A DNA stretch of 64,000 bases, taken from IMG/VR virus record IMGVR_UViG_3300032236_000552, positions 35,865 to 99,864 of that record; one strand, written 5' to 3'. The notes under the pieces are model-generated. The model ran no database searches. It worked only from the letters and a program-made list of their open reading frames with translations, and was not told the DNA's origin. Every line of letters starts with the position of its first letter. The stretch's first letter is position 1. This DNA comes from a virus. A program made the translations under genes and the position numbers. This document shows, one piece after another, positions 16,380 to 41,087 of this stretch.

Positions 16380-16670
16380 TTGACTAACACACCAGAAGTA
16401 TCTGCTGAAGAACCGTTTTTACGAGTCAGCGCATCCTCCAATCCCCAGAGCGTTGCATCAGCAATCGCCCATGCCTGCTACGACAAGCGTGAGGTTAAAC
16501 TCCGTGCCGTAGGTGCTGGAGCAGTAAACCAAGCAGTTAAAGCCATCGCTATTGCCCGTGGATACGTGGCACCTCGTGGTATGGATTTGACCGATAAGCC
16601 AGGGTTTACAACCATCGAAAGCCGTGACGGAGAGATTTCCGCCATCGTATTTCACATTACAGCGTCCTAA
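16380..16670 (+). CDS. SpoVS-domain protein
   Basis: 96 residues from a TTG start with AAAGGA upstream; a GTG at 16347 would add 11. The match to stage V sporulation protein S is clear by eye: LRVSASSNPQSVASAIAH, then VGAGAVNQAVKAIAIARGYV, then a strand ending in IVFHI. SpoVS proteins are small nucleic-acid-binding ALBA-like folds in spore formers and other bacteria. A phage copy may bind DNA or RNA to control host development or gene expression; this is inference. Confidence 0.8.
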   Translation: MTNTPEVSAEEPFLRVSASSNPQSVASAIAHACYDKREVKLRAVGAGAVNQAVKAIAIARGYVAPRGMDLTDKPGFTTIESRDGEISAIVFHITAS

Positions 16671-16707
16671 TAAAGACGTATCCTTGTACCTAGAGTAAGG
16701 AGTCACA

Positions 16708-17157
16708 ATGGCATCTTGGACATCATTAGGTCATGCCATGCGTCGTCGCATGGGTGCACCATCAAACCATCTAGAGTCAGCAGGTAAATCTATGGCACGT
16801 AACATTTCAACCCCAGAGGAAGTTATTGCTTCTGCAGAGCACGCTAACAGCCCACGTAAGTATGTTGGTCAATCAACAGGCTTCGAGGCAGTAAAGCCAG
16901 AGCGTGGAACGCTTGTTGCTAAGAAGAACACACAAGCATCTAACCCAACCGCTGGCGGAAAAACAAACAAGAAGAATGTTCTTGCAGGAAATGCAGCAGC
17001 ATCAGAGCGCATGGGTGCACGCTATTCAACAAGCGTCAAGTTCCCAGCAGGAACTGAGCCAGCAGCAGCGCCAACAATGCGTAATGCAAAGACGGTTCCT
17101 TCAGTTGCTGGACGTCAAGCACCTAACTTTGATAGCGGGATGAATAGCGTTCTCTAA
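16708..17157 (+). CDS. Unknown disordered basic protein (149 aa)
   Basis: Rich in Ala, Ser, Asn and Lys with few hydrophobics, so mostly disordered. TAAGGAGTCACA gives a good ribosome site. First of a run of about twelve small, low-complexity genes (to 21.4 kb) joined by stop/start overlaps. No family recognised; a virion or DNA-binding role is only a guess. Confidence 0.65.
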   Translation: MASWTSLGHAMRRRMGAPSNHLESAGKSMARNISTPEEVIASAEHANSPRKYVGQSTGFEAVKPERGTLVAKKNTQASNPTAGGKTNKKNVLAGNAAASERMGARYSTSVKFPAGTEPAAAPTMRNAKTVPSVAGRQAPNFDSGMNSVL

Positions 17158-17414
17158 TGTCTATTCTCTCTGACAACCAGTTTCATGAGAGTGTAACGCC
17201 TGAACAGTCACATGTTGAGGCGCCACTCTCATTGAGTTCATCCACAAACAATTCCGCTGCACAGGCAACTGCGTGGCGTAACTCTTCTTTGGGTGGAGGA
17301 CGTCCTCTCTCGTTCTCATCAAAGACACGTGGTACAACGTTTAACTGGGATGACGCACCAAAGGCATCACTGCCATCATCAGACACGGGCGCATCGTTCG
17401 GAGGCAAAGAATGA
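17157..17414 (+). CDS. Unknown Ser/Thr-rich small protein (85 aa)
   Basis: Start overlaps the preceding stop (TAATG). Low complexity, Ser-rich, with no motif. Belongs to the small-gene run that starts at 16.7 kb. Confidence 0.6.
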   Translation: MSILSDNQFHESVTPEQSHVEAPLSLSSSTNNSAAQATAWRNSSLGGGRPLSFSSKTRGTTFNWDDAPKASLPSSDTGASFGGKE

Positions 17415-18025
17415 GTCAAGAACACCTCAGCCACTCAGAGTTTGCTGATGTAGTAAACAAAGAAGGTGGCGCAAGCCGTAACTTCCAAACCAGTGCACCT
17501 GCAAAAGGTCCTGGTGTTATGGTGTCTATCCCTGGTGCAGAGAAGATTACAAACGCTCCTCTTACTGCAGACCAAGCAAAGTCATTCCGTAGAGACCACG
17601 ATGCCATGGCAACGGGAAGTGACTACCACGGTGCTTGGAAATCTGGCGACAAAGTTTTCCAAGATGTTAGTCGTAAGCACACCGATTTAGACAGCGCACG
17701 TAAGGCTGGAGAGCGTGACAAGCAAATTGCTGGTTACGATTTAGGCGGAACTGATGAGCGTCGTCCAGAAGGTGGCGAAGTATTCTTTGGTCGCCATGTT
17801 CCAGGAATTGAAAGCAACGAAGAGTTCAAGGGCGGAAAGAACAAGACAAGCCAACAAGAGCGCATGTCTCCAAAGCCAAGTAGCCGTTCACAAGAGTTTG
17901 CAGAGCAATCACATATTAGCCGTGGTGCAACTGTAGGCAAGCGTGGTGGCAAAGGTACAAAGAAGATTTCTATTAACGAAGTTTACGCAACAATCGCAAA
18001 GAACCGCCGAAACAGAGGCGTCTAA
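17411..18025 (+). CDS. Unknown hydrophilic protein (204 aa)
   Basis: ATGA overlap with the previous gene. Strongly charged and Gly/Ser-rich, with a basic end (RGGKGTKKISINEVYATIAKN). The last 30 residues look like a folded helix; the rest is probably extended. No family recognised. Confidence 0.65.
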   Translation: MSQEHLSHSEFADVVNKEGGASRNFQTSAPAKGPGVMVSIPGAEKITNAPLTADQAKSFRRDHDAMATGSDYHGAWKSGDKVFQDVSRKHTDLDSARKAGERDKQIAGYDLGGTDERRPEGGEVFFGRHVPGIESNEEFKGGKNKTSQQERMSPKPSSRSQEFAEQSHISRGATVGKRGGKGTKKISINEVYATIAKNRRNRGV

Positions 18026-29544: not shown

Positions 29545-30870
29545 TCACTCCAAATAGTCATTAACAACCTCGGCTGCCTTTGACTGCTGGTGACGGATAC
29601 GGTGCAGATAACGCTCCGTCGTTGTTATCGACTGGTGACCTAGACGCTCTTTTACCTCATGGACATCAACGCCTTTTGTTAGAAGGAGAGTGGCGTTGGC
29701 GTGCCGTAAGTCGTGCGTTGTTGGATACCAGCCAATACTTGACTGGGTTATGGCTTCGTTCCAAATGGCTCGCCATTTATCACGAGGTAGATAGTCTTCG
29801 CTTTTGCTAAGGCTTTGGCTTCTGCTATTGCTTCTGCTACGGCTTTGGCTTTTGCTAAGGCTTTCTACTTTGCCTTTCGCTTTGTCCTTTCTATAGTGAC
29901 TGCGGTAATCCTTTACCGCTTGCTTGCATTGGTCACACCTACAACCTCCTACGTTGTACGAGTAGGGTGTTGCGTGTTGGAATGTTCTGCTTCCAACGGT
30001 GTAACTTCCTTTGCTTTTGCTAGGACTTACTATTTTACTTGGCTTCTCTACAACTTGCTTCGAGAAGACCAAATCTTCTTTTGATAGGGCTTTTGCTGAG
30101 ACAAACGCCTGGATTTCGGCTATCAACGAAGAACTTAGTGTAACAGTCCTCTTATGACCGTTCTTTGTGCGTGGCTCTACCGCAAATCTTCGCAGGTCGG
30201 AACTATATTTTTTGCCTACATCTGAGACTGTTCTTCTTATATACACTTCTTTTGAGGTAAAGTTAAAGTCTTTAACACGCAACTCTGTTGCTTCTCCAAA
30301 CCGACAACCAGAACCCATCAGAAATCTGGCAAATAACTTTGCGCCGTCTGTGGGTAACTTCTTTACGATAGCCTGAAAGTCTTTAGCGTCTAGCGTGTAG
30401 GTTGGGTCGGGTCTTACTATCTGAACTTTGATACGGTGGGTTGGGTTGGTTGGGATTACCTCATCATCAACGGCTAACCTGAATAGGTATCCTAGAGCCG
30501 TTTTGAGGTGGGAGATTGTGCTAGGGCTTATGCCCTGCTTCTGTAAGTCCTCTAGCAACTTACGTATATCTTGCTTCTTGATTGCGGTCATCTTCTTGCC
30601 TTCTAAAGTGGGCTGGGCATACTTCTTTAGAAGGGTGGTGTAAGTCTTTTTAGTGATAGCCCGTAGGTCTCGTCTCTCCAGCAATTTGTCCATATAAGTA
30701 TCGAACGTCTCTTGGTATTCGGGCAGGGTCTCAAACTCTCCTGCTTCGGCTAGGAGTCCTGCATTTAGGGCTTTGGCTTTGGTGGGGTAAGTTCCCACGC
30801 TTTTTGTCTTGCCCTCTGAATTGCGGTAATAGCCTGTATAACGCTTGTTACGTTCGACTACATACGCCAT
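29545..30870 (-). CDS. int: Tyrosine integrase with inserted CRC domain
   Basis: 441 residues. The N-terminal 40 residues are arm-type DNA-binding (AYVVERNKRYTGYYRN), and the core-binding SAM-like domain runs about 50-150. Catalytic residues are R190 (GSGCRFGEATEL), H386 and R389 (HDLRH), H412 (GHQS) and Y421. Between about 270 and 360 sits an insertion: a HxTPYSYNVGGCRCDQC motif (C310, C312, C315) and a Ser-Lys/Arg/Gln repeat. GGGGG at 8 bp supports the MAYVV start at 30870 rather than 30900. It would integrate the phage in the host chromosome; no attP core could be identified. Confidence 0.9.
   Translation of the reverse strand: MAYVVERNKRYTGYYRNSEGKTKSVGTYPTKAKALNAGLLAEAGEFETLPEYQETFDTYMDKLLERRDLRAITKKTYTTLLKKYAQPTLEGKKMTAIKKQDIRKLLEDLQKQGISPSTISHLKTALGYLFRLAVDDEVIPTNPTHRIKVQIVRPDPTYTLDAKDFQAIVKKLPTDGAKLFARFLMGSGCRFGEATELRVKDFNFTSKEVYIRRTVSDVGKKYSSDLRRFAVEPRTKNGHKRTVTLSSSLIAEIQAFVSAKALSKEDLVFSKQVVEKPSKIVSPSKSKGSYTVGSRTFQHATPYSYNVGGCRCDQCKQAVKDYRSHYRKDKAKGKVESLSKSQSRSRSNSRSQSLSKSEDYLPRDKWRAIWNEAITQSSIGWYPTTHDLRHANATLLLTKGVDVHEVKERLGHQSITTTERYLHRIRHQQSKAAEVVNDYLE
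29805..29875 (-). repeat. Hexamer-based repeat in integrase gene
   Basis: Minus-strand units AGCAAA, AGCCAA, AGCCGT and AGCAGA encode Ser-Lys/Gln/Arg repeats. Shares a 16-base core with the transglycosylase repeat, read in a different frame; a shorter patch is at 30009-30024. Confidence 0.8.
30189..30201 (-). repeat. 13-bp repeat TTCGCAGGTCGGA, copy 1
   Basis: Inside the integrase gene, encoding SDLR. Same orientation as all other copies. Confidence 0.75.
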
Positions 30871-30894
30871 GACTTGCCCCCTTTGTGTGGCGTG

Positions 30895-30917
30895 GGTCAC
30901 GTGTGACCTACATCACA
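30895..30917. promoter_or_regulatory. GlxR/CRP-type operator and palindrome at integrase promoter
   Basis: TGTGACCTACATCACA (30902-30917) fits TGTGA-N6-TCACA and the GlxR form TGTGANNTANNTCACA exactly. It overlaps the palindrome GGTCACGTGTGACC (30895-30908). It lies between the proposed -10 and the integrase start, so binding would probably block transcription. Confidence 0.55.
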
Positions 30918-30918
30918 G

Positions 30919-30946
30919 AGCCTATCAAATTAGCGGTGGATTGCAA
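30919..30946 (-). promoter_or_regulatory. Candidate integrase promoter
   Basis: On the minus strand TTGCAA (-35-like) is followed by 16 bp and TAGGCT (TANNNT, -10-like). It is the only space between the upstream terminator (30955-30992) and the integrase gene. Confidence 0.4.
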
Positions 30947-30954
30947 AATAGAAC

Positions 30955-30992
30955 AAAAAAGGGGGCAGACTGCCGATTGGCAATCTACCCCC
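30955..30992 (-). terminator. Intrinsic terminator ending the minus-strand block
   Basis: On the minus strand GGGGGTAGATTGCC pairs with GGCAGTCTGCCCCC (one wobble) around a 4-base loop and is followed by TTTTTTG. It separates the integrase from the genes to the right. Confidence 0.8.
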
Positions 30993-31021
30993 CTGAGTGC
31001 TAACTACTCGTCTAAAGACGT

Positions 31022-31216
31022 TTAGCGAACTTCTTTTACCTGTGGCTTAGTTCTTTGCGCCTGACTTGTTAAGTGCCACTTGTTACATATCGGACACTTG
31101 TAGGAAGCGCAAGGAAGTTTCCTTCCGTCTAACCAATGAGACTTCCAAATAATCGAAAGGACTCGTTCGGCTTTTGCTCTAGTAGGAAATGCTTTCTTAT
31201 CAACACACTTAGCCAT
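31022..31216 (-). CDS. Zinc-finger protein (64 aa)
   Basis: An N-terminal basic helix (FPTRAKAERVLSIIW) precedes CASYKCPICNKWH, a compact CxxxxCxxC-H zinc site. Probably binds nucleic acid. Its start overlaps the end of the upstream minus gene. Confidence 0.6.
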   Translation of the reverse strand: MAKCVDKKAFPTRAKAERVLSIIWKSHWLDGRKLPCASYKCPICNKWHLTSQAQRTKPQVKEVR

Positions 31217-31349
31217 GCAAGCACCGTTCCTTGCAGTCAGCGCAGAACCACATCACATAAAGACCTTTAGTGGTCGTTACGGCGTGACCGTCCTCAAACG
31301 CCTTCTCTTGCCCGCAGGTGTCGCATAGTTCTAAAGTTACATATCCCAT
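31209..31349 (-). CDS. Zinc-ribbon protein (46 aa)
   Basis: CDTC (about 9-12) and CADC (about 37-40) make a zinc ribbon. Start overlaps the upstream gene by 13 bp and its own end overlaps the downstream gene by 8 bp. Confidence 0.6.
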   Translation of the reverse strand: MGYVTLELCDTCGQEKAFEDGHAVTTTKGLYVMWFCADCKERCLHG

Positions 31350-31516
31350 AGTGCCTCATCTTGTTGTGCTTCTAGTTCGGTATCTACTGCCTTATCTAAG
31401 GCTTCGGTGCAGATACAACACTCTGAGCAGGTTAAGCAAAACTCGCAGACTTCATTATTATCCCACGAGTCACACTCATCACAATACTTCTTATCGGTAT
31501 CGCCCTCAGACTCCAT
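31337..31516 (-). CDS. Cys-rich acidic protein ending in LWDM (59 aa)
   Basis: Seven Cys (CDEC, CEFCLTCSECCIC) make at least one zinc or metal cluster. The protein ends DEALWDM, one of the LW-acidic tails. Start overlaps the upstream stop (TAATG). Confidence 0.6.
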   Translation of the reverse strand: MESEGDTDKKYCDECDSWDNNEVCEFCLTCSECCICTEALDKAVDTELEAQQDEALWDM

Positions 31517-31776
31517 TACTCCTCCTCGCCATTTGCTCCGAGAGGCTTACGATATTCGATACCCCTATGCAGGATAATCGTCTTAAAGGTGGCACTTACA
31601 TAGTTACCGTTATCATCAACATCTCTTGGGTTGTTAATCTGTTCCGCAATAGTGTCCAAAAGAATATCCATATTTCTTTTGCTCAATACTCGGTCAGTAT
31701 TAAACTCAAACTCAATCTTGTAATTACGGCGTGCCTTAAACTTAGACTTCTCAATACGAATAACTGCTTTTTCCAT
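31516..31776 (-). CDS. Unknown protein (86 aa)
   Basis: Basic N-terminus (MEKAVIRIEKSKFKARRNYK), then beta-rich, acidic end (GANGEEE). No family recognised. One base separates it from the upstream gene stop. Confidence 0.6.
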   Translation of the reverse strand: MEKAVIRIEKSKFKARRNYKIEFEFNTDRVLSKRNMDILLDTIAEQINNPRDVDDNGNYVSATFKTIILHRGIEYRKPLGANGEEE

Positions 31777-31965
31777 TTAGTCCTCCTTAGTCTCTGAGAC
31801 TACCTTTAGTTGGTAATCACTCTTGTTCATATCCATATTCCCAATGACTTGATTAGTCTTATCGAACACGACCTCGTAGAAACTTCGCAGGTCGGATACG
31901 TCTTTAGTGTCGAAAGTAATCGGCACTTGTGTTGTTAGTTCTACCATATAAGTATTTATTGCCAT
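31777..31965 (-). CDS. Unknown small protein (62 aa)
   Basis: Beta-rich by alternation, acidic end. It contains the 13-bp repeat in frame as SDLR. No family recognised. Confidence 0.55.
   Translation of the reverse strand: MAINTYMVELTTQVPITFDTKDVSDLRSFYEVVFDKTNQVIGNMDMNKSDYQLKVVSETKED
31884..31896 (-). repeat. 13-bp repeat TTCGCAGGTCGGA, copy 2
   Basis: Inside a small gene, encoding SDLR. Confidence 0.75.
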
Positions 31966-31969
31966 TTGT

Positions 31970-32281
31970 TTATGCCTCCCATAGTTCTTGGTCTTTTTCT
32001 ATATCTACTACTACTTCTGACTCCTCTAAGTATTCATTTAGACACTCTAAGATTTGGTCTCCAACATCAGGACTGTCGTACACTCCGTTAGTTGTGGACT
32101 CCCATGCTTCATCAAAGAGGTTATTTAGTTTCTCATCAGTCAGGGAGTAGTTCTCCTGCATATCTCCTAACGTGTCCTCTACCCAACTCATAGCGAGTTT
32201 TCTATCCCACCAAAGAACCAAAATACTTTCTTTAGGGTCGTACTTAGAAAGTTCTTTTATGATTTGTTCTACTGTTGCCAT
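31970..32281 (-). CDS. Acidic protein, paralog pair member 1 (103 aa)
   Basis: Begins with VEQIIKELSKYDPKESI, matching the next gene's VKEVIEQLQKLDPNEPI, so the two are duplicates that diverged. Acidic helical body, ends QELWEA. The TGGGAGG that encodes the tail also serves as a ribosome site for the downstream gene. Confidence 0.65.
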   Translation of the reverse strand: MATVEQIIKELSKYDPKESILVLWWDRKLAMSWVEDTLGDMQENYSLTDEKLNNLFDEAWESTTNGVYDSPDVGDQILECLNEYLEESEVVVDIEKDQELWEA

Positions 32282-32284
32282 TTG

Positions 32285-32596
32285 TTATCCCTCCCATAGT
32301 TCTTGGTCACTTGCCGCTTTTTCTCTTTCTACAACATGACGAGTGCATACATCTTGGATAATGTCTGAAACACTTTCGTTAAACTTCTCCCAAACATACT
32401 CGTCGTTCCATACCAGCCTAAAGATAGTGTTAAAGATTTCATCTGAGAAGTCTTTATCAACATCAAAGCCGTTTACGTCTTGCTCTAAGATTTCTGTTGC
32501 TAAGTCTGCCTTCACGTACCACATATCAAAGATAGGTTCGTTAGGGTCTAACTTCTGTAACTGTTCTATAACTTCTTTTACTGTTGATACTGCCAT
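32285..32596 (-). CDS. Acidic protein, paralog pair member 2 (103 aa)
   Basis: Same length and N-terminal pattern as its neighbour (31970-32281). Ends SDQELWEG. Function unknown; the pattern x-E-x-LxxLDP is shared by many small phage proteins. Confidence 0.65.
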   Translation of the reverse strand: MAVSTVKEVIEQLQKLDPNEPIFDMWYVKADLATEILEQDVNGFDVDKDFSDEIFNTIFRLVWNDEYVWEKFNESVSDIIQDVCTRHVVEREKAASDQELWEG

Positions 32597-32599
32597 TTG

Positions 32600-32842
32600 T
32601 TATCCCTCCCATAATGCTAGGTCTTGTTCTTCTTCTTCTAACAACGCAATAATCGTGCGTTCACAATCAGAGCGAGTTCTGTAATCGTTGCTATCTGTCC
32701 TTTCGTATTTATCTTTAGTAGAGGTCTGCACTAGCCACCACCAATCGCTATCGGGATTTCGTGAGATAACGAACCGATTATCTAAAGTTGCATACGAGCC
32801 TGTGTGTAACTTCTTTAACTTTAACTTATACATCTTAGACAC
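32600..32842 (-). CDS. Unknown small protein ending in LWEG (80 aa)
   Basis: Basic N-terminus (MSKMYKLKLKKLHTG), then polar with Tyr/Trp/Asp; ends DLALWEG. Overlaps its upstream gene by 8 bp. Confidence 0.6.
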   Translation of the reverse strand: MSKMYKLKLKKLHTGSYATLDNRFVISRNPDSDWWWLVQTSTKDKYERTDSNDYRTRSDCERTIIALLEEEEQDLALWEG

Positions 32843-33440
32843 TTGTTTCCTCCGTATCCCATAGCCCTGCTTCTTGTTCGTCTTGTTCTAACTGGCACTC
32901 ACTACATATAGAAGGAGTATTTTCTTTATAGCAAGGCAACCACTCACTACAACTCATGCAACTGTGGTGTTCTGACTCCTCGCCCCAATACTTGTCGTAG
33001 ATTTCACACGTCCACTCGTCACCTTCCTCCTCTAAGAAGTCCTGACCATTTGCATACGTGTAAGTTCCGTAGAACGCACCACCTTCGTCATAGTATTTGT
33101 AAGTCATTTTGACTTTTGGATTGTCTTTAGACAACTGCAAAAGAACATAGTGAACTGGTGACCATGCAGTCCAAAAGTTAATATGCACCGAACCCTGTTC
33201 CCAATCATCAGTTATATATGGGTCGCACATATCCCACTTAGTACCCCAGTTGTTTATTGACCAGTTGTACCAATTTCTTTCCTCATCAACTGGCATAGGA
33301 ATAATCTTGTGAAAAGAAAATGGACTAGCAGGGTGAGCCTCTGTTGCTTCACTCTCTGTAATCTGAACCTGCTTCATCAGTTTATTTAACTGCTTAGGCT
33401 TTCCAGTTATATAGAGAGTGCTTACACAATGATTTGGCAT
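32835..33440 (-). CDS. Api92/YubB-like (DUF1281) protein with C-terminal zinc site
   Basis: 201 residues. MPNHCVSTLYITG at the start and WYNWSINNWGTKWD in the middle are the hallmark of the Api92/YubB family (ferredoxin-like fold), whose role is unknown. The C-terminus adds CMSCSEWLPCYKENTPSICSEC, a likely zinc ribbon, and ends AGLWDTEETSV. Confidence 0.75.
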   Translation of the reverse strand: MPNHCVSTLYITGKPKQLNKLMKQVQITESEATEAHPASPFSFHKIIPMPVDEERNWYNWSINNWGTKWDMCDPYITDDWEQGSVHINFWTAWSPVHYVLLQLSKDNPKVKMTYKYYDEGGAFYGTYTYANGQDFLEEEGDEWTCEIYDKYWGEESEHHSCMSCSEWLPCYKENTPSICSECQLEQDEQEAGLWDTEETSV

Positions 33441-33443
33441 TTG

Positions 33444-34052
33444 TTATTCCTCCTTTAGTTTTCTGTTAGTTAATTGACGGTACGCACCCGATTTGCCGTC
33501 AGTCTGACGGTATCCATATCGGACTAGGCGTGAGTTAATTGCGGCTGGTGTAATGCCTAAAGAACTTGCAACACGATAAGTAGTGACTCCACTATCTACG
33601 AGTTGCTTAACGAGTGCCATAAACTCCTCGGCTTCCTCACGATACTTAGGACTACTGCTACGGACTTGTCGTGCCTTGTCGTGTAGTTCTTGTAGTCGTG
33701 TAAGGACATCAGGGTCAATGGCAACTCTCTTTATCTGTTGCTTATAGACTTCTACATGAGGAATTGGTGGGATAGGTAAGTGCTTTATCACCAACTGCAC
33801 CCCAGTCTCGTTGTTGCTATCAAACTTGGCATAAAGACGAATAGCCTCTCGTGTTAGTCCTAGTTCATTAGCGATAGATTGCAAAGTCCAACCAGCCTCA
33901 GACAACTTAGTTGCATAGGCTCTACGTTCTTTTAATGGCAGACTTCTTAAGATTTCCCCAACTTCTTTAGGGAGAACATGGTGCTTGTGTACGGTCTTGT
34001 TACCAACAAACACACTTTCTTTTTCTTTTGTATGTCTAAATGGATAAGTCAT
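33444..34052 (-). CDS. DNA-binding protein with two helix-turn-helix motifs
   Basis: 202 residues. Two HTHs are visible: WTLQSIANELGLTREAIRLY (about 56-75) and VTTYRVASSLGITPAAINSRL (about 153-174). The N-terminus is basic. It is the best regulator candidate for the 13-bp repeats in this block, and its own leader carries a copy (34073-34085) about 20 bp upstream. A recombination-directionality or plasmid-type regulator is another possibility. Confidence 0.7.
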   Translation of the reverse strand: MTYPFRHTKEKESVFVGNKTVHKHHVLPKEVGEILRSLPLKERRAYATKLSEAGWTLQSIANELGLTREAIRLYAKFDSNNETGVQLVIKHLPIPPIPHVEVYKQQIKRVAIDPDVLTRLQELHDKARQVRSSSPKYREEAEEFMALVKQLVDSGVTTYRVASSLGITPAAINSRLVRYGYRQTDGKSGAYRQLTNRKLKEE

Positions 34053-34068
34053 GGGTTTATGCTCCTTG

Positions 34069-34518
34069 TTATTTCGCAGGTCGGATTAGCGATACACCGT
34101 TGTTGGTGATAGCCGTTAGTTCTTGTTGCAACTTAACTACTTGCTCTGCAAACGATTTGCGTGCGTAGTCATGGTATGAGTCAGGGATTTGCGCTAAGAC
34201 TTCTTTATCTATTTGGTGAAACCACTCATCACGAAAACGCAAGCCACCGTCTTTACGATAGCCTCGCACCTTTAAGTTGTTAAGTACGAAGGACTCTTTA
34301 TCCTCGTAATTGAGTTGGTAATCTAATCGTTCTAGTCTTACCTTCTTTTTAGTACCAGTCTTTTGCCAACCATTAGTTGCAGAGTTCCAGTTGTAATCCC
34401 ACTCATCTATCTCAATGATTATCTGCTCTGTCTCTGATAGTTCTACATAACAACTCATGCTGATACCGCTACTACTCTCAACACTTGTGTCTGTGCTTGG
34501 TGCAGTTATTACTTTCAT
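34069..34518 (-). CDS. Unknown protein (149 aa)
   Basis: Start at 34518 (MKVITAPS) with AAGGAGG at 7 bp spacing, which is better than the ORF start at 34569. Beta-rich, acidic. Its last codons are IRPAK, encoded by the 13-bp repeat. Confidence 0.6.
   Translation of the reverse strand: MKVITAPSTDTSVESSSGISMSCYVELSETEQIIIEIDEWDYNWNSATNGWQKTGTKKKVRLERLDYQLNYEDKESFVLNNLKVRGYRKDGGLRFRDEWFHQIDKEVLAQIPDSYHDYARKSFAEQVVKLQQELTAITNNGVSLIRPAK
34073..34085 (-). repeat. 13-bp repeat TTCGCAGGTCGGA, copy 3
   Basis: Overlaps the end of the upstream gene and lies in the leader of the two-HTH gene. Confidence 0.8.
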
Positions 34519-34556
34519 ATCATGTCCTCCTTGTTTCGGTACTACGTATAGGGTCA

Positions 34557-34991
34557 TTAGTTCTCCCATAGTTCTTGTTCTTGTTCTAGTTCTATTGCGT
34601 AGTCTCTATCCATAATCTCTAGTAAGTGGTCGTAGGCTTCTATGGGGTTGTGGTGGACACAATCCTCAAACTCCTCCTCATAAATACTTCGACACTCATA
34701 CCAGTTGTTCATGTCTATAACTAACTTGTCTTGTTCTACGAGTTCATACAACTTTTGGTCGGTGTTAATTCCTGTTCTTTCTAAGTCCTCAATAGTTACT
34801 AACTTATCGTCCAAAAGAAGTCTGACTTCTCCATAGACTCCAACATAACCGCACTCATTAGTTGGAGTCTTTACTGTGATTACTGGGTTGTGACCGCCAT
34901 GCCAAAGACTGTCTGCTTTATCAGGGTCAGTTAGGTCGTGAATAACATCAGCAGACCAGCCTTCGGGTGCTTCATATACAACTGGCTTCAT
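34557..34991 (-). CDS. Acidic protein ending in LWEN (144 aa)
   Basis: Start at 34991 (MKPVVYEAPEGW), overlapping the upstream stop (TGATG). Acidic with Trp/Tyr; repeated QEQE before the end. Not recognised. Confidence 0.6.
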   Translation of the reverse strand: MKPVVYEAPEGWSADVIHDLTDPDKADSLWHGGHNPVITVKTPTNECGYVGVYGEVRLLLDDKLVTIEDLERTGINTDQKLYELVEQDKLVIDMNNWYECRSIYEEEFEDCVHHNPIEAYDHLLEIMDRDYAIELEQEQELWEN

Positions 34992-35704
34992 CAGTAACCG
35001 TATTTCTTGGCGCATATCGCACCCATACCACCAGCGATTGACTTGGCTTTTGTAAGTGTGCGACCACAATGGCAACAACGACCAGTCTGTGCTGAGTATT
35101 TAATTGCGTCTCTTAGTGTGAGTCGGTGTGCAGGAGTAATAAGTGGCAAGATATTTTTCTTGCTATCGTCTCTAACATACTTCTTTTGCTCATCAGAGTA
35201 CGACCACACCTGCCACTTCTTGCTCTCTACTCCTAACCTAATCGAGTAGATAACTCCTTCATATAGATACGCCCCCACTTCTGTAATCTGCATAGTGGGT
35301 TCTTTAGTTGCTTTAGTACGCAACGTGTTTATGAGTTCTGATACTTCTTTACGAGTGAAGTATTTTAATTCACGCACCTTGTTCTTTTGCAAGACATAAA
35401 GGTAAGCCTCTAACCCACCTTCTTTTGTATCCACGAGACTCTGTGCATACGCAACTTGCTTATCAGTTGCGTACTCAACGTAGTCAGGCTTAGTAGGACA
35501 CGACAATAGTGAAGTGATTAAGTCACCAGCACCTTGCACATTTAACTTCGTTAGTTCCTCGTCAGTTAATTTGCAAGCGTGTTGCTTTTCATTTAGTAAC
35601 TTCTTTATGAAGTTTATTTGCTTCTCACTTGCATAACGCACTTGGTACTCACCGTACTGATTGCCACCTCGTGAGCCACCTGCCTTGTGAAGTGTTGTGG
35701 TCAT
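34991..35704 (-). CDS. DUF6011-type zinc protein (237 aa)
   Basis: C-terminal CCHCGRTLTKAKSIAGGMGAICA is the DUF6011 ribbon, a family found in many phage proteins. The first half has repeated YASEKQINFIKKLL and YATDKQVAYAQSLV segments, each probably one helix-loop unit. Role unknown. Confidence 0.75.
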   Translation of the reverse strand: MTTTLHKAGGSRGGNQYGEYQVRYASEKQINFIKKLLNEKQHACKLTDEELTKLNVQGAGDLITSLLSCPTKPDYVEYATDKQVAYAQSLVDTKEGGLEAYLYVLQKNKVRELKYFTRKEVSELINTLRTKATKEPTMQITEVGAYLYEGVIYSIRLGVESKKWQVWSYSDEQKKYVRDDSKKNILPLITPAHRLTLRDAIKYSAQTGRCCHCGRTLTKAKSIAGGMGAICAKKYGY

Positions 35705-35871
35705 AGTGTTTTCCCTTCCAGTTGTTGATTGGCAGAGTTCTTTATATGCGCCTGTACGTCACTCACACCATGAGCGACTGCATAGAACCCTCCAGCATTT
35801 AGTCGTGCCTTCTCCTGCCCCAGCACTCTGAGCAGGAGAGATACTTGCTCCTCTGATAGTTCGATATTCAT
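35701..35871 (-). CDS. Small protein (56 aa)
   Basis: ATGA overlap with the downstream gene and TAATG with the upstream one. Helical start (LSEEQVSLLLRVLGQEKARL), polar end. Probably a small regulator or adaptor, not recognised. Confidence 0.55.
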   Translation of the reverse strand: MNIELSEEQVSLLLRVLGQEKARLNAGGFYAVAHGVSDVQAHIKNSANQQLEGKTL

Positions 35872-36452
35872 TACAACACCGCCTTTCCTTCATAAGCGAG
35901 TTCCAGCAAACGCTCAAACTCTTTAATGCCGACTGTTACAACGCCCTTGTAAGACTCCTCGTAACCTGTTGTATCAACACTCACCTCTGCATTACCCACG
36001 AGTTCCGAGAGACTTGTAAGGATAGAAGTCTTAGAACGTGCGACTTCCTCCTGCACTCGTGCTTGTAGTTCACGTACCTTTCTACGCTTCTCCTCCTCAA
36101 TGCGCCTTGCTTCTTGCTCCGCTTGATTACGGTTAGCCCATAGTGGCTCTAGTGTTGCCCACTCAATGAGAATATCTGCTAGTCGTGCAGTCCAGTAGAA
36201 GTCATTACCGTTCTTATCTTTAGCAGTTACAAGAACGCCAACTGAACGGTGACCTTCTGGTGCTTTCTTAAACTGTGTACGGTCTTGTGTGCGACTGTTA
36301 GGGTCATACTCAAACTTAGTTAGTTCCAACACCGTTGCTTTTAGAACGTCAGACTCTCGTACTGTATTAACGTCACGACTGTTCTTACTGTTGTATTCCC
36401 ATGCAGGAAAGATTGCGTACTCTGTACCAACTTGTAGTTCGGATAGTTTCAT
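35871..36452 (-). CDS. Unknown protein with coiled coil (193 aa)
   Basis: Beta-rich N-terminal 90 residues, then a charged coiled coil (RNQAEQEARRIEEEKRRKVRELQ), then a helical end. TAAGGAGCATATCTAA gives its ribosome site. Its leader contains a 13-bp repeat. Confidence 0.65.
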   Translation of the reverse strand: MKLSELQVGTEYAIFPAWEYNSKNSRDVNTVRESDVLKATVLELTKFEYDPNSRTQDRTQFKKAPEGHRSVGVLVTAKDKNGNDFYWTARLADILIEWATLEPLWANRNQAEQEARRIEEEKRRKVRELQARVQEEVARSKTSILTSLSELVGNAEVSVDTTGYEESYKGVVTVGIKEFERLLELAYEGKAVL

Positions 36453-36474
36453 TTAGATATGCTCCTTATAGATT

Positions 36475-36487
36475 TTCGCAGGTCGGA
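36475..36487 (-). repeat. 13-bp repeat TTCGCAGGTCGGA, copy 4
   Basis: In the leader of the preceding gene, followed 11 bp away by the 10-bp hairpin at 36499. Confidence 0.8.
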
Positions 36488-36498
36488 TTTTTTGTAAT

Positions 36499-36525
36499 GA
36501 GTGGCGAGCAGATAACTCGCCACTC
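36499..36525 (-). terminator. GAGTGGCGAG/CTCGCCACTC hairpin A
   Basis: 10-bp perfect stem with 7-base loop, 14 bp after the VWA gene. Same stem sequence as hairpin B. Downstream lies A/T-rich DNA (ATTACAAAAAATCC on the minus strand). Confidence 0.75.
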
Positions 36526-36538
36526 TCTTGTAACTTCT

Positions 36539-38539
36539 TTAAGCATTAACCAAACGGCGTGAGATAGCAATACGCACTAGGTCTTTACCGAGTGTGAGAA
36601 TATCTCGTGCAGTTTTGATATTAGTCATTAACTCAAACTCGTGGCGATAACGATTAAGAACATCATCATTTAAGTCTGAGTCATAGAGAAGTGCTTGGCA
36701 GGTAAGGACACCAGCGTTACGCATTTCTGTAACTGCTTGCTCTCCTTCTTTTGTATCCCATGCACCGTCAGTAATCATAAAGAGGATTTTGATTGGCTTC
36801 TTGCTCTCAGCCAAAACTCTCTTAGCAAACAAAAGAGACTCACATGGATTTGTTCCACCGCTTGCTCCTCCGTCACGAATAGTTGTACCTGCTCGTTCAT
36901 CAGCACCATAAAGAAGTGTTGTGCCGTAATCGAATAGTGCAACTGTTGTACGTGCTTGCACACGCTCTAGTGCAGACTTAATAGCCCACATGGATTGGTA
37001 AGCATGATTGGCTGAGTCACCACTCATACTGCCCGACTTATCAAGGAGGATAACTGCCTCAATATCGCAAACATCATCTATGCCCTCAGTCCATGAGTCA
37101 AAGATTGTGTCGAAGTCTGCTCCTTGTATATAACGCTGAACGTTCACCTTTCCAGTATCGGTAGCACGCAACCATGCTGGGTCATAATCAGAACGCAAAC
37201 GCTCTAGTTCACGACCAAACGATTTAGCAACACCGATTAACTCAGGAGGAGTTGCAACGTCTTTGTAGTTAGCACGTTCAGGAGTCTTAGCGTTACCGCC
37301 GTCAAGGTCGCTAGAGATACCTAACTGTTTTGCAATTCGATTAACTTCTTTAGAAAGTTCTTTTGCAACATCATTAAATATATCTTGCAACGTATCTGTG
37401 ACTTGTTGATTGTCTCCTGTTGTTCCAATGCTTGTACCAATGCCCTTGCCACCTTCTTGTGGTGAAGGACTGTCGTACTCGCTATCGCTTTCAGTATCAG
37501 AGTCACCGTCACCGTCAGAGTCACCGTCACCGCTACCGTCAAAAGGCTTACCGCCATTACCGTTAGCAGTATTGGTATCGTCTTTAGCAGTATCGCTATC
37601 GCCGTTACCTTCATCATCAGACTCATCAGCAGGAGTATCAAGAACAACATCAAGAACAACATCACCCTTCTTAGGAGAACGTTGCTTGTCTTTTTCTTGT
37701 TCTGATTTTTTCGCAGGTCGGACGTTGCTTGACTCGTATCCGTCTGTTGGTCGGTGGTCGTGTCCATGAGGATTATGCACTCGCACCCAAACGTCACGTC
37801 CACCTTCTCCTTCACCTTCACCGTTGCCAGTATTAACTGGTGGAAGGTTCTTTAGAAGTTCTGCATACTCTGTAATGAGTTGGTATGCAGTCTCGGTCAC
37901 TTCATCATTACCAGTAAGAATTAAATCGTTGTATTGGTCAATGATTTCAGCGAACGCATGAATATCTTGTGGGTTCTTAAACTTATCTACCGACAACTGG
38001 CGCAACTCAACTGGTAGATAAGTGCGACCATAGATAAGTGGGAAAGAAGTTGCTACTGCTTCCTCGTTCTGAATTAGATAGTCAGCGATTGTTGCAGTAA
38101 GCCAACCTTCCAATGGTGGGAGATAGCCAACGAGTAAGTTCTCGATACGCATATCCTCTAAAGAATTAAAGGCTTGCCATAACTCACGAGAGTTATCAGA
38201 CTCTTTAATCTTGATAACAAGATTGCTTCCGTTTCTTGGCGTATAACGCAAATGAGCGTACTCATGGAAGCAGAGACCTTGCAACGACAAAATTGACTTA
38301 GCAGTGAAGTCATATTTAATTTCTGCAAGATTAAAACTTACTGACGAAGTGCTTGACCATGCAGGGGCAGGATACTCAGGACGATTAACGATATTGACTT
38401 TAATCTTGCGACCAGTCAAAACGCTAAGTGTCTTAGTGAATATCTCACCAAAAGACTGTAAGTGATTTTGCTTTTTGATTTGTAATTCTTTTTCTTTATC
38501 TGTCTGTTCTACTGCAAACTTCGGCATTACGGTAGTCAT
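36539..38539 (-). CDS. VWA-domain protein with HEXXH motif, CobT-like
   Basis: 666 residues. Domain order: N-terminal region with CFHEYAHLRYT (H92-H96, zinc metallopeptidase-type HExxH), a middle linker very rich in Asp, Ser, Gly and Glu (about 280-370), and a C-terminal VWA domain with the MIDAS turn DKSGSMS (about 500) and TDGAW. This order resembles CobT and DUF2201-type proteins, which partner with a MoxR/CobS AAA+ ATPase; such an ATPase is encoded directly upstream. Role unclear: chelatase subunit or chaperone. Confidence 0.8.
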   Translation of the reverse strand: MTTVMPKFAVEQTDKEKELQIKKQNHLQSFGEIFTKTLSVLTGRKIKVNIVNRPEYPAPAWSSTSSVSFNLAEIKYDFTAKSILSLQGLCFHEYAHLRYTPRNGSNLVIKIKESDNSRELWQAFNSLEDMRIENLLVGYLPPLEGWLTATIADYLIQNEEAVATSFPLIYGRTYLPVELRQLSVDKFKNPQDIHAFAEIIDQYNDLILTGNDEVTETAYQLITEYAELLKNLPPVNTGNGEGEGEGGRDVWVRVHNPHGHDHRPTDGYESSNVRPAKKSEQEKDKQRSPKKGDVVLDVVLDTPADESDDEGNGDSDTAKDDTNTANGNGGKPFDGSGDGDSDGDGDSDTESDSEYDSPSPQEGGKGIGTSIGTTGDNQQVTDTLQDIFNDVAKELSKEVNRIAKQLGISSDLDGGNAKTPERANYKDVATPPELIGVAKSFGRELERLRSDYDPAWLRATDTGKVNVQRYIQGADFDTIFDSWTEGIDDVCDIEAVILLDKSGSMSGDSANHAYQSMWAIKSALERVQARTTVALFDYGTTLLYGADERAGTTIRDGGASGGTNPCESLLFAKRVLAESKKPIKILFMITDGAWDTKEGEQAVTEMRNAGVLTCQALLYDSDLNDDVLNRYRHEFELMTNIKTARDILTLGKDLVRIAISRRLVNA
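37710..37722 (-). repeat. 13-bp repeat TTCGCAGGTCGGA, copy 5
   Basis: Inside the VWA gene, encoding VRPAK. Confidence 0.75.
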
Positions 38540-38562
38540 TTATTTGTTGCCTCTCTATTTAT

Positions 38563-38575
38563 TTCGCAGGTTGGA
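38563..38575 (-). repeat. 13-bp repeat, copy 6 (one mismatch)
   Basis: TTCGCAGGTTGGA, one base different from the others. Lies in the leader of the VWA gene and is followed 4 bp away by hairpin B. Confidence 0.7.
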
Positions 38576-38579
38576 TAAT

Positions 38580-38605
38580 GAGTGGCGAGCATTTACTCGC
38601 CACTC
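38580..38605 (-). terminator. GAGTGGCGAG/CTCGCCACTC hairpin B
   Basis: Same 10-bp stem as hairpin A with a 6-base loop, between the AAA+ gene and the VWA gene. The pair of identical stems, each next to a 13-bp repeat, suggests a duplicated control unit. Confidence 0.75.
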
Positions 38606-38619
38606 TACTTGCAACGGTA

Positions 38620-39963
38620 TTACGCAACAACTTCGCTTTCGAGATGAGAACGGTGTGCTTCCAAAAGAAGTTTCACACTTGCCTTCTCATCATCTCGGAA
38701 GTTGTTAAGGAAGTTATCAACTGCATAGTTGTAACTAATATCTCTAGCAAACTTCTCAAAGTTCTTTAGAAGTCTTGTAGAGATTGGTGTCTCATAAACA
38801 CCAGCGATTGCTTCCTCACGCATTTGTTGTGCGAGGCGTAGCAAGGTCGGTGACTTAATAAACTGCTTCTCAATTTCGATGTCGTACTCGAAAGTCCACT
38901 TGTGTTGGAAGCGGTCAGCGAACGCTTGATTAAACTCTTGCGTTCCACGATAACCTCGTGAAGCAGGATTGTAAGAACCGATAAGCAAGACATTTTCTCC
39001 TGCTTCGATTACTTCGCCCTTGTGGTCTAGCAATATCAACTGACGGCGTGAGTCCAACGTTGGGTGAATTGCAGAGGAAAACTTAGAGGGCATACAAGAC
39101 AACTCATCTAAGTTAATAACTGCATTTCCATTACGCCAGCACTCTGTAAAACCACCGTCTTGCCAAACAAGATTGCCTTGCTCGCTAGGAATAACCTTGC
39201 CGAACAACTGTCCTGTATCTATGCCAACGTTAAAGTTCACCGAGTAATAACGCAAACCTCTTTTGCTTGCATAGACCATGCCACTTGTTGTCTTACCAGT
39301 ACCAGCGTCTCCTGCAATAAGGATATTGTGACCGTTCTTCATGGCGTAGTCGTACAACTCTGTTTCAGTTTCACCACTTGCAAACGTGCGTTCGACATAA
39401 CCTGAGATTTCAGGATTGCTTGCAGAAGGTACGAACGACAATGAGTTTTCATCAAAGTTGTGTTCGATTGCTTGCAACGGTTCACGAACAACCTTAATGA
39501 CTGGTGCTGGTGCAACTGTTGTCTGTGCTTTCGTTGCAGACTTATCTGAACGTCCGTCAGAACGATAAGCAGACAATAGGTTGGGGTCTTGTTGTATCAA
39601 AGTATCAACCTCTTTCAGTAAGTCTCCAACTGTTTTGTTAGAGACTGATTGGTGACGTAAGCGATATTGCTTCGTCAATTTCTGAATTAGAACAACTGGG
39701 TATGAATTGTTAGCGAGTGCAGACTGGTCTGCTTCTGTAAGTGGTGTTGATAGAACCTCACCGACAATAAGGTCGGTGTAAGTATCAGCGTTAGAAATAA
39801 TTGTTTCGTAATCAAGCGCATTAGTCCAAGCGTTGCTTTCGCCTCGCCCTCCATTTGTAATGCGAGTAAGTGCGTACTGCTTACCGTTATGGCTTGCGAG
39901 TAATAGTTGTTGCAAAGTATCTGCTTGTGAAGTCTTACCTGTAATGAGAATTGCATACGACAT
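38620..39963 (-). CDS. MoxR/CobS-like AAA+ ATPase
   Basis: 447 residues. Walker A GDAGTGKT (218-225), Walker B AVINLDELSCM (about 280-290), sensor-1 GSYNPAS and RGT-type turn are those of MoxR/CobS proteins. The first 200 residues are a variable N-terminal arm with an acidic, low-complexity section. Its usual partner is the VWA protein encoded just downstream, with the two genes joined by the hairpin/repeat unit. Confidence 0.85.
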   Translation of the reverse strand: MSYAILITGKTSQADTLQQLLLASHNGKQYALTRITNGGRGESNAWTNALDYETIISNADTYTDLIVGEVLSTPLTEADQSALANNSYPVVLIQKLTKQYRLRHQSVSNKTVGDLLKEVDTLIQQDPNLLSAYRSDGRSDKSATKAQTTVAPAPVIKVVREPLQAIEHNFDENSLSFVPSASNPEISGYVERTFASGETETELYDYAMKNGHNILIAGDAGTGKTTSGMVYASKRGLRYYSVNFNVGIDTGQLFGKVIPSEQGNLVWQDGGFTECWRNGNAVINLDELSCMPSKFSSAIHPTLDSRRQLILLDHKGEVIEAGENVLLIGSYNPASRGYRGTQEFNQAFADRFQHKWTFEYDIEIEKQFIKSPTLLRLAQQMREEAIAGVYETPISTRLLKNFEKFARDISYNYAVDNFLNNFRDDEKASVKLLLEAHRSHLESEVVA

Positions 39964-39989
39964 TTATTGCTCCGTTTTCTTGTTAGTTG

Positions 39990-40232
39990 TTAGAGTGAGA
40001 ATTGGTGATAGAGACTTGCAACTTCTTTTAACTTTTTTTCTGCTTGCTTGTTCACGTCACGTAACGCTTTACGCAACTGTTTTTCTGTAACCATTTGCAG
40101 TAATGCAAGGTGCATGGTGTAGAACAACTGCTCATCATCTAAAGAAGGATTAAGAAAGTTGATTGCTTCTTTTAGTTGTTGTTCCAGTTGTAGTTTTTCT
40201 ATGAGTACGTTTTTCGCAGGTCGGATTTTTTT
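39990..40232 (-). other. In-frame extension after a UGA stop (80 codons)
   Basis: Follows the stop of 40233-40547 in the same frame and has no good start codon of its own. Encodes a charged helical sequence (KQLRKALRDVNKQAEKKLKE). Could be stop readthrough, a gene with an unusual start, or a degraded remnant; an internal ATG gives only 41 residues. Confidence 0.4.
40213..40225 (-). repeat. 13-bp repeat TTCGCAGGTCGGA, copy 7
   Basis: Just after the UGA stop at 40233, read in frame as IRPAK. Preceded by an A8 run. Confidence 0.8.
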
Positions 40233-40547
40233 TCACACCCATAACCCTTCTCGTAGTTGGTGTGCAAACGTTACGAACGTGTAATCGTCTTTTGTATTTA
40301 GTAATCCTTTTACTATCGGTGTCTTACATGACTGACGTTCTTTTAAGTTGGCGTGTAACTTCTTTACAAACAAACGCAACAACTTAATTTCGTTTTGATA
40401 TGAGTCAATATCAAACACGTCAATAACAAAGAACAACCCTGCTACTTCTGAAAAGTCAATGCCACGAATACACGCAGTATTTTTTGGCACGACAATTTTA
40501 TTTCGTAATAGTTCTTGCGCTTCTGCTGGTGTGATTTCACAAGACAC
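40233..40547 (-). CDS. Unknown protein (104 aa)
   Basis: Mixed alpha/beta; ends REGLWV, a weak member of the LW-tail group. UGA stop is followed in frame by 80 open codons. Not recognised. Confidence 0.6.
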   Translation of the reverse strand: MSCEITPAEAQELLRNKIVVPKNTACIRGIDFSEVAGLFFVIDVFDIDSYQNEIKLLRLFVKKLHANLKERQSCKTPIVKGLLNTKDDYTFVTFAHQLREGLWV

Positions 40548-40740
40548 TTAGTAGTTCCTCCCTAACTTCTTTAGTCCAGTTGTTCTTTTGAGTTGTGCGA
40601 CCATGACTGTCGTTCCTATGCCACTTACTAAAGTGACGTGTGCCTTCTGAATAGAACCAGTAATCAAAACGTGCGCCACGTTCAGGTAAGTCTGACGGCT
40701 TCACGTAATCAAACGGCTTGTGTGCAAACGTGTGCGACAT
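40537..40740 (-). CDS. Unknown basic protein (67 aa)
   Basis: Basic, His-rich, aromatic (RFDYWFYSEGTRHFSKWHRND); no clear motif. Probably binds nucleic acid. Overlaps both neighbours. Confidence 0.55.
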   Translation of the reverse strand: MSHTFAHKPFDYVKPSDLPERGARFDYWFYSEGTRHFSKWHRNDSHGRTTQKNNWTKEVREELLSVL

Positions 40741-40844
40741 TAGTTAGTTACCTTTCGTAGAAGTGATACCAACGACATGAAGGACTCTCCTTCATCATCT
40801 ATAAGAAGTGTTACGCCTTGCTCATCAACTGTTGCGATAGTCAT
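40740..40844 (-). CDS. Small peptide (34 aa)
   Basis: Overlaps the next gene's ATG by 1 bp (TAATG). AGGAGAAATAAATAAATG gives a ribosome site. Acidic, helical; no function visible. Confidence 0.45.
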   Translation of the reverse strand: MTIATVDEQGVTLLIDDEGESFMSLVSLLRKVTN

Positions 40845-40877
40845 TTATTTATTTCTCCTTTTTCTTGTATCGGTTTA

Positions 40878-41087
40878 TTAGTGAGGATAAAGAAGGTCAA
40901 TGCAGTATTGCGATAGTTGTTCGATTGGCTTGTGCTTGCATACTTCGGGAGTTGTTATATCAAACAACTTATATATAACGTAGATTGCAACACCAGCGAT
41001 TAGTAATGCACGCAAACGCTTTCCACGTTTTGTTAATCGCCACGTTGTAGTTGTAGAAGTTCGCAGGTCGGATTTTTTGTTAGGCAT
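40878..41087 (-). CDS. Small membrane protein (69 aa)
   Basis: Basic N-terminus (13-bp repeat encodes SDLR at residues 6-9), then one hydrophobic helix (LLIAGVAIYVIYKLF), then a short outside-like Cys-containing end. Single-pass membrane protein, function unknown. Confidence 0.6.
   Translation of the reverse strand: MPNKKSDLRTSTTTTWRLTKRGKRLRALLIAGVAIYVIYKLFDITTPEVCKHKPIEQLSQYCIDLLYPH
41060..41072 (-). repeat. 13-bp repeat TTCGCAGGTCGGA, copy 8
   Basis: Inside the start of the membrane-protein gene, encoding SDLR. Confidence 0.75.

Follow-up and report, generated by a model that had tools for sequence, protein, structure and literature searches.

In phage SPbeta, dispersed repeated elements are read by a recombinase-like phage repressor. 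For cluster A mycobacteriophages (L5, D29, and TipsytheTRex), the portions of the literature drawn on here describe dispersed one-way sites that stop transcription, the stoperators, which are 13-bp asymmetric sequences present in many copies and in one orientation relative to transcription, some at gene ends and some inside genes, with a consensus that varies by subcluster (PMC9283540, PMC6550527). The start-associated sequences (SAS) and extended start-associated sequences (ESAS) of cluster K phages are described, in the part of the source used here, as a 13-bp asymmetric repeat that occupies part of the genome mostly in one orientation, with about half of the copies behind inverted repeats and virtually all SAS within a few nucleotides of start codons (PMC3203893). 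Here we describe a 13-bp unit, TCCGACCTGCGAA as read on the coding strand, that recurs eight times within a leftward gene block of the IMG/VR virus record IMGVR_UViG_3300032236_000552 (99,864 bases), the last 64 kb of which form the stretch analyzed (the window). A literature search on stoperators in freshwater actinobacteria phages found no paper.

Like the cluster A stoperators, the window unit is an asymmetric, multi-copy sequence of about 13 bp in a single orientation whose consensus differs between related phages. Unlike them, it has a different sequence, occurs in 3–8 copies per block (25 loci) rather than 20–30 per genome, and is concentrated in one block with none upstream of it. Stoperators are genome-wide and are accompanied by an early-promoter operator, whereas the window record has one copy outside the block and the records of two relatives, L087 and L088, carry theirs mostly within it. 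The unit resembles the cluster K SAS as a 13-bp asymmetric repeat confined to part of the genome and mainly in one orientation, but window sites 4, 7, and 8 (listed below) lie inside genes, as do sites in relatives, and lineages differ in their consensus. These sites make up a genuine system that is oriented and whose version switches from lineage to lineage.

Orientation, copy number, and concentration in one block

All eight positions given in the original prediction are correct, seven being exact copies and one (38563) carrying a single mismatch. As written there, all lie on the plus strand inside a minus-strand block; on the coding strand, with spacings of about 0.8–2.4 kb, they are:

41060..41072, minus strand: site 1, TCCGACCTGCGAA, codons 6–10 of open reading frame (ORF) 40878-41087
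40213..40225, minus strand: site 2, adjoining the stop of ORF 40233-40547 on its 3′ side, behind an A run
38563..38575, minus strand: site 3, one mismatch (TCCAACCTGCGAA), at the AAA/VWA junction behind a hairpin, about 23 nt ahead of the VWA start
37710..37722, minus strand: site 4, in a low-complexity stretch within the VWA gene
36475..36487, minus strand: site 5, at the VWA/35871 junction, preceded by a hairpin with a perfect 10-bp stem and by an A run; the start is about 22 nt further on
34073..34085, minus strand: site 6, in the end codons of ORF 34069-34569 and the leader of the gene for a protein with two helix-turn-helix (HTH) regions
31884..31896, minus strand: site 7, within ORF 31777-31965
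30189..30201, minus strand: site 8, within the tyrosine integrase gene, where many relatives likewise have sites

The copies at 38563 and 36475 are intergenic. Others are read as SDLR in three genes (31777, the integrase, and 40878), as originally proposed, or as RPAK within the VWA gene, where 34069 ends, and, by eye, in an open frame past the stop of 40233; two frames are used, not three. Because two frames are used and some copies lie outside coding sequence, a protein motif is ruled out, and the view that the nucleic acid itself is conserved holds. Shine-Dalgarno sequences were also rejected as an identity for the sites, since some relatives' versions resemble them but the window version does not.

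The best 13-mer of the window block, ATCCGACCTGCGA, was observed eight times within one mismatch against about 0.003 expected, with no reversed copy. At up to three mismatches the window holds 14 matches against a shuffle mean of 12.9, so the signal resides only in close matches. The original prediction had seen no copies elsewhere by eye; an exact and one-mismatch search of the whole record recovered a single further copy, at record position 9415 on the minus strand, within a rightward ORF and sense to it. No comparable oriented 13-mer was found at 1–28.9 kb or 43.6–64 kb of the window, and 42.26–43.69 kb contains no match within three mismatches. The sites are therefore neither randomly oriented nor equally frequent among the plus-strand genes. 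As a positive control, the identical procedure on D29 ranked the stoperator first among oriented 13-mers, with 18 copies and no reversed one. At up to two mismatches, 19 of 21 D29 matches share one orientation, 11 of these 19 being intergenic, four overlapping gene ends, one near an end, and three deep in genes.

The same orientation is seen in relatives. Across 25 block loci, matches within one mismatch comprise 136 sense and 0 antisense sites, and a reversed-motif control on both strands gave 3. The consensus was taken from each locus and loci were selected because a motif was recognized in them, so construction favors the sense count but not the absence of antisense sites. Loci that had few sites or an unclear motif were left out (L014, L018, L020, L021, L029, L030, L034, L037, L089, L090, L092, L094, L104, L127, L160, L167, L170, L178, and others), and L099 was omitted as a near copy of L098. 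At up to two mismatches, 34 whole loci contain 150 plus-strand and 12 minus-strand matches, 10 of the latter in A-rich versions, with 5 reversed-motif matches. One match in L016 (5518; counterpart at 849 in L014) is antisense to an L016 ORF and was treated as chance. In whole records at this threshold, 8 of 11 matches in L087 and 7 of 10 in L088 fall within the block with its strandedness; in these two records, as in that of the window, the sites are concentrated in the block.

Site versions at shared slots in related viruses

Relatives were gathered by searching viral contigs with the AAA protein, with HTH and AAA alignments, and with an integrase alignment, and versions of the site were recognized by de novo 13-mer counting and by reading shared slots. 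In several loci (e.g. L012 and L019) the site is not the top-scoring 13-mer, with ribosome-binding-site (RBS)-like and AAAGAAG-type words scoring higher, and the L017 motif was recognized from shared slots. Site carriers are mostly uncultured bacterial viruses with the same gene block. Their versions, often at the slots used in the window, include TCCGAGGTGCAAA, TCCGAAGGGACAAA, TCCGAAGGAAAAA, TTCGGGATAGAAA, NCCGCAACAAAAA, and NCCGMCTACAAAA, and by locus they read:

L011: TCCGAGGGGAGAA
L012, L015: NCCGAGGTGCAAA
L019: YCCGCTGTGCAAA
L013, L016, L028, L032, L035, L036: NCCGMRGGGACAAA
L017: NCCRAAGGAAAAA
L086–L088: TTCGGGATAGAAA
L147: TTCGGGATAAAAA
L085, L091, L100, L124, L093, L096, L097: NCCGCMACAAAAA
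L146: NCCGCMACGAAAA
L163: NCCGMCTACAAAA

Aligned sites are strongly conserved across about 13 bp, with little conservation in the flanks. The shared slots are the AAA linker, the AAA/VWA junction, the VWA linker, the VWA/35871 junction, the DUF6011 gene start, the HTH gene start, ORF 31777, the end of 31022, and the integrase. For example, the ORF 31777 slot holds TCCGACCTGCGAA in the window and TCCGCAACAAAAA in L091 and L100. The VWA/35871 junction has a hairpin with any of four versions behind it among the loci shown (window, TTCGGG, CCGCMACA, and L163 types); the hairpin is present without a site in L011–L013, L015–L017, L019, L098, L101, and L102, and the site without a detectable hairpin in L088. 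This pattern indicates that versions were swapped in place and that the hairpin is a separate feature rather than part of the unit.

The sharpest comparison is that of L085 with L086–L088. The latter three contain TTCGGGATAGAAA and lack CCGCMACAAAAA within one mismatch, and L085 shows the reverse, so that the site is entirely different, yet six of ten compared block proteins differ by only 0.20–0.43 (about 57–80% identical). The HTH protein differs by 0.30–0.48, and g32835, g34069, and g32285 differ by 0.50–0.82.

Eight HTH-less metagenomic and four isolate AAA/VWA loci have no sense match to the eight class consensuses, with one antisense match in L112. In the isolates, Gordonia phages Gray, GMA6, and DalanDe and Brevibacterium phage Cantare, the top 13-mers are mostly RBS-like or acidic-codon repeats rather than units like those of the window.

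Possible mode of action and candidate readers

We give about even credence to the view that the 13-bp units regulate a single leftward transcription unit as orientation-dependent sites, served by a trans-acting factor with lineage-shifted specificity. This factor, probably phage-encoded, would recognize the 13-bp units, and its specificity would have changed between lineages, as though each version had a factor of its own. Once bound, it would most likely block or attenuate RNA polymerase strand-specifically along the operon, in the fashion of a stoperator. A stoperator-like mechanism, proposed by analogy, is the best-supported reading; we infer DNA binding, a transcriptional effect, and a phage-encoded reader. 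Such sites would form a second set of this kind, different in sequence and with many natural specificity versions at shared positions, and would show how sites and reader evolve jointly. More tentatively, and with somewhat less than even confidence, we suggest an independently evolved, orientation-locked site system with at least eight versions rewritten in place, read by something other than a Rep-type repressor or the two-HTH protein; environmental phages would then offer a natural series of switches in specificity resembling heteroimmunity.

Several observations weigh against this stoperator-like reading. Within one mismatch, the region upstream of the block has no copy and the rightward genes have only that at record position 9415, so classical immunity repression is unsupported. 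At up to two mismatches, 3 of 11 matches in the L087 record and 3 of 10 in the L088 record are outside the block, as are, for the A-rich version, 15 of 39 across four records (24 of 39 inside). A loose L011 pattern places about 5 of 14 matches of that record in the block and about 9 of 14 outside it, although it also matches the window record 5 times and the non-block matches may be chance. Distance correlations single out no block protein as the reader. The site-less loci are more divergent, with AAA or integrase mostly 30–48% identical to those of the window, so the link between sites and gene content could reflect shared ancestry. Finally, strict sense orientation suits action at the RNA level equally well.

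In an RNA-level explanation, the unit would be a sense mRNA sequence bound by a phage RNA-binding protein or small RNA to control translation, stability, or termination. Every counted site in the 25 block loci is sense, many lie in leaders ahead of the Shine-Dalgarno region or behind hairpins, and the cluster K start-associated sequences provide a 13-bp precedent. We nevertheless consider this explanation unlikely: many copies are deep within genes (AAA, VWA, and integrase), and in the distant locus L046 two examined copies of CCGAGGTAAAAA, whose homology to the window sites is uncertain, lie by eye between a terminator-like hairpin and TTGGAT/TTGACA boxes. Little transcript is expected at these copies because they are behind the hairpin and ahead of the promoter-like boxes.

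The sense orientation and the spacing of the window sites would also suit promoters, each site being an initiation element for an altered or phage-specific RNA polymerase, and several copies are about 12–40 nt ahead of start codons, some behind terminator-like hairpins. The flanks, however, contain no −10 element at a fixed distance, the L097 site at 11130 abuts a Shine-Dalgarno sequence, and L098, L101, and L102 retain the VWA/35871 junction and its hairpin with no site. Seven of ten large window ORFs scanned match other families and the remaining three match none. These features make promoters quite improbable. A phage sigma factor is improbable, Sigma70_r2 being absent from four records in which the positive control was detected; PF00940, for a single-subunit RNA polymerase, gave no match, but its control was silent too, and such a polymerase may yet be encoded. 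A promoter scan of the block region returned 10 sites against 27.8 in shuffles.

The original prediction compared the sites with stoperators and proposed the two-HTH protein encoded from 33444 as their reader. The likeness stands for length, asymmetry, orientation, and a lineage-specific consensus, with the sequence itself being different; the proposed reader is not borne out, and we regard it as very improbable. In its favor, 24 of the 25 loci in the orientation count contain the HTH gene, 13 of 20 loci have a site at or within their own HTH gene, and the predicted structure shows two HTH regions. In addition, searches of the complete site-less records did not detect the gene in L098, L099, L101, L102, L103, L105, and L181, and the site-less L185 record has only a 37-residue HTH match; for L183, the gene was looked for in the locus only. 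Its helices, however, do not track the motif: L085 and L086 share the recognition helix HRQTVLDY and a near-identical second HTH yet have different motifs, whereas L086 and L087 share a motif and differ in their first helices. L163 has six sites, but its 89,243-base record, possibly incomplete, gave no HTH match. HTH divergence shows no special correlation with the motif (−0.075 and −0.035 as partial correlations, from tests on 20, 17, and 16 non-independent lineages), and Microbacterium phage Pumpernickel encodes a distant homolog without such a 13-mer in the stretches examined.

The predicted structure of the two-HTH protein (mean pLDDT 86, pTM 0.55) gave no fold match in the PDB at E ≤ 0.001. 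In PDB sequence comparisons its profile matches sigma region 4 best (E 0.0016), and none of the matches listed links it significantly, by sequence or by fold, to a solved phage repressor. It thus differs, as the sole candidate checked, from Rep-type monomeric repressors, which combine an HTH with a stoperator domain. Since the sites are concentrated in one block and this protein is contradicted as reader, the unit is best called stoperator-like rather than a confirmed member of the stoperator system.

The neighboring Api92-like protein g32835 was likewise rejected as a reader. It tracks the motif in L085–L088 (differences of 0.51–0.53 across and 0.11–0.23 within motifs) but fails elsewhere: the same-motif pairs L091/L100 and L013/L016 differ by 0.53 and 0.44, and L093, L096, and L097 yielded no such gene. 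The reader may be encoded outside the block or be a host factor.

Homologs of the two-HTH protein occur in seven Microbacterium phage records, and an HTH-profile search of genome contigs confirmed no relatives among 34 candidate stretches. The L087 homolog (16560-17453) is lengthened by a C-terminal HTH-like stretch with a second partial profile match. Phages with distant homologs (L041, L045, L048, L070, L082, L083, and others) have several copies of CCTGATATAATTA, many just ahead of genes, which looks like an extended −10 promoter. Other such phages (L039, L040, and L056) contain repeats, up to about 19 bp long, that look intergenic and occur in both orientations, with several copies behind terminator-like hairpins or ahead of TTGACA-like boxes.

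Gene block and surroundings

The leftward block spans about 42.26 to 28.94 kb and comprises small genes of unknown function and those for AAA ATPase, VWA, DUF6011, two-HTH, and Api92-like proteins, small proteins, the tyrosine integrase, and a further small protein that looks lysozyme-like by eye and has no family match. Its main features are:

38620..39963, minus strand: AAA ATPase (CobS/MoxR-like), whose linker is a site slot in relatives
38580..38605, minus strand: hairpin directly upstream of site 3, with 10-bp arms identical to those of the hairpin at 36499..36525
36539..38539, minus strand: VWA protein (CobT-like)
36499..36525, minus strand: hairpin with a perfect 10-bp stem, directly upstream of site 5; a junction hairpin is also present in site-less relatives
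33444..34052, minus strand: two-HTH protein with a sigma-region-4-like N-terminal HTH, the reader candidate contradicted above
32835..33440, minus strand: Api92-like/DUF1281_C protein, which tracked the motif in one four-locus group and not elsewhere
29545..30900, minus strand: tyrosine integrase, close to the end of the site-bearing block

The rightward genes scanned to the left of the block encode a DnaB-like helicase, primase, DNA polymerase A, RecA, and ribonucleotide reductase, and those scanned to its right have lysis and packaging functions. A single-protein scan of the integrase gave one short match only; the protein contains a Ser/Lys/Arg-rich repeat and a Cys-rich stretch (VGGCRCDQCKQ), both kept in relatives. 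At 39990-40547 on the minus strand, an open frame past the stop of 40233-40547 resembles, by eye, the L016 gene 9715-9975. Its first ordinary start codon is at 40127, and the site at 40213 and the A run are at its beginning, an arrangement that could reflect slippage, an unusual start, or an assembly error.

Six minus-strand block proteins (31337-31516, 31970-32281, 32285-32596, 32600-32842, 32835-33440, and 34557-35078) share a C-terminal LW[DE] tail after acidic residues or Gln, for example DQELWEG, QDLALWEG, and QEQELWEN, and the repeated L011 word AAGAACTATGGGA fits this tail, which is possibly a shared docking or degradation tag.

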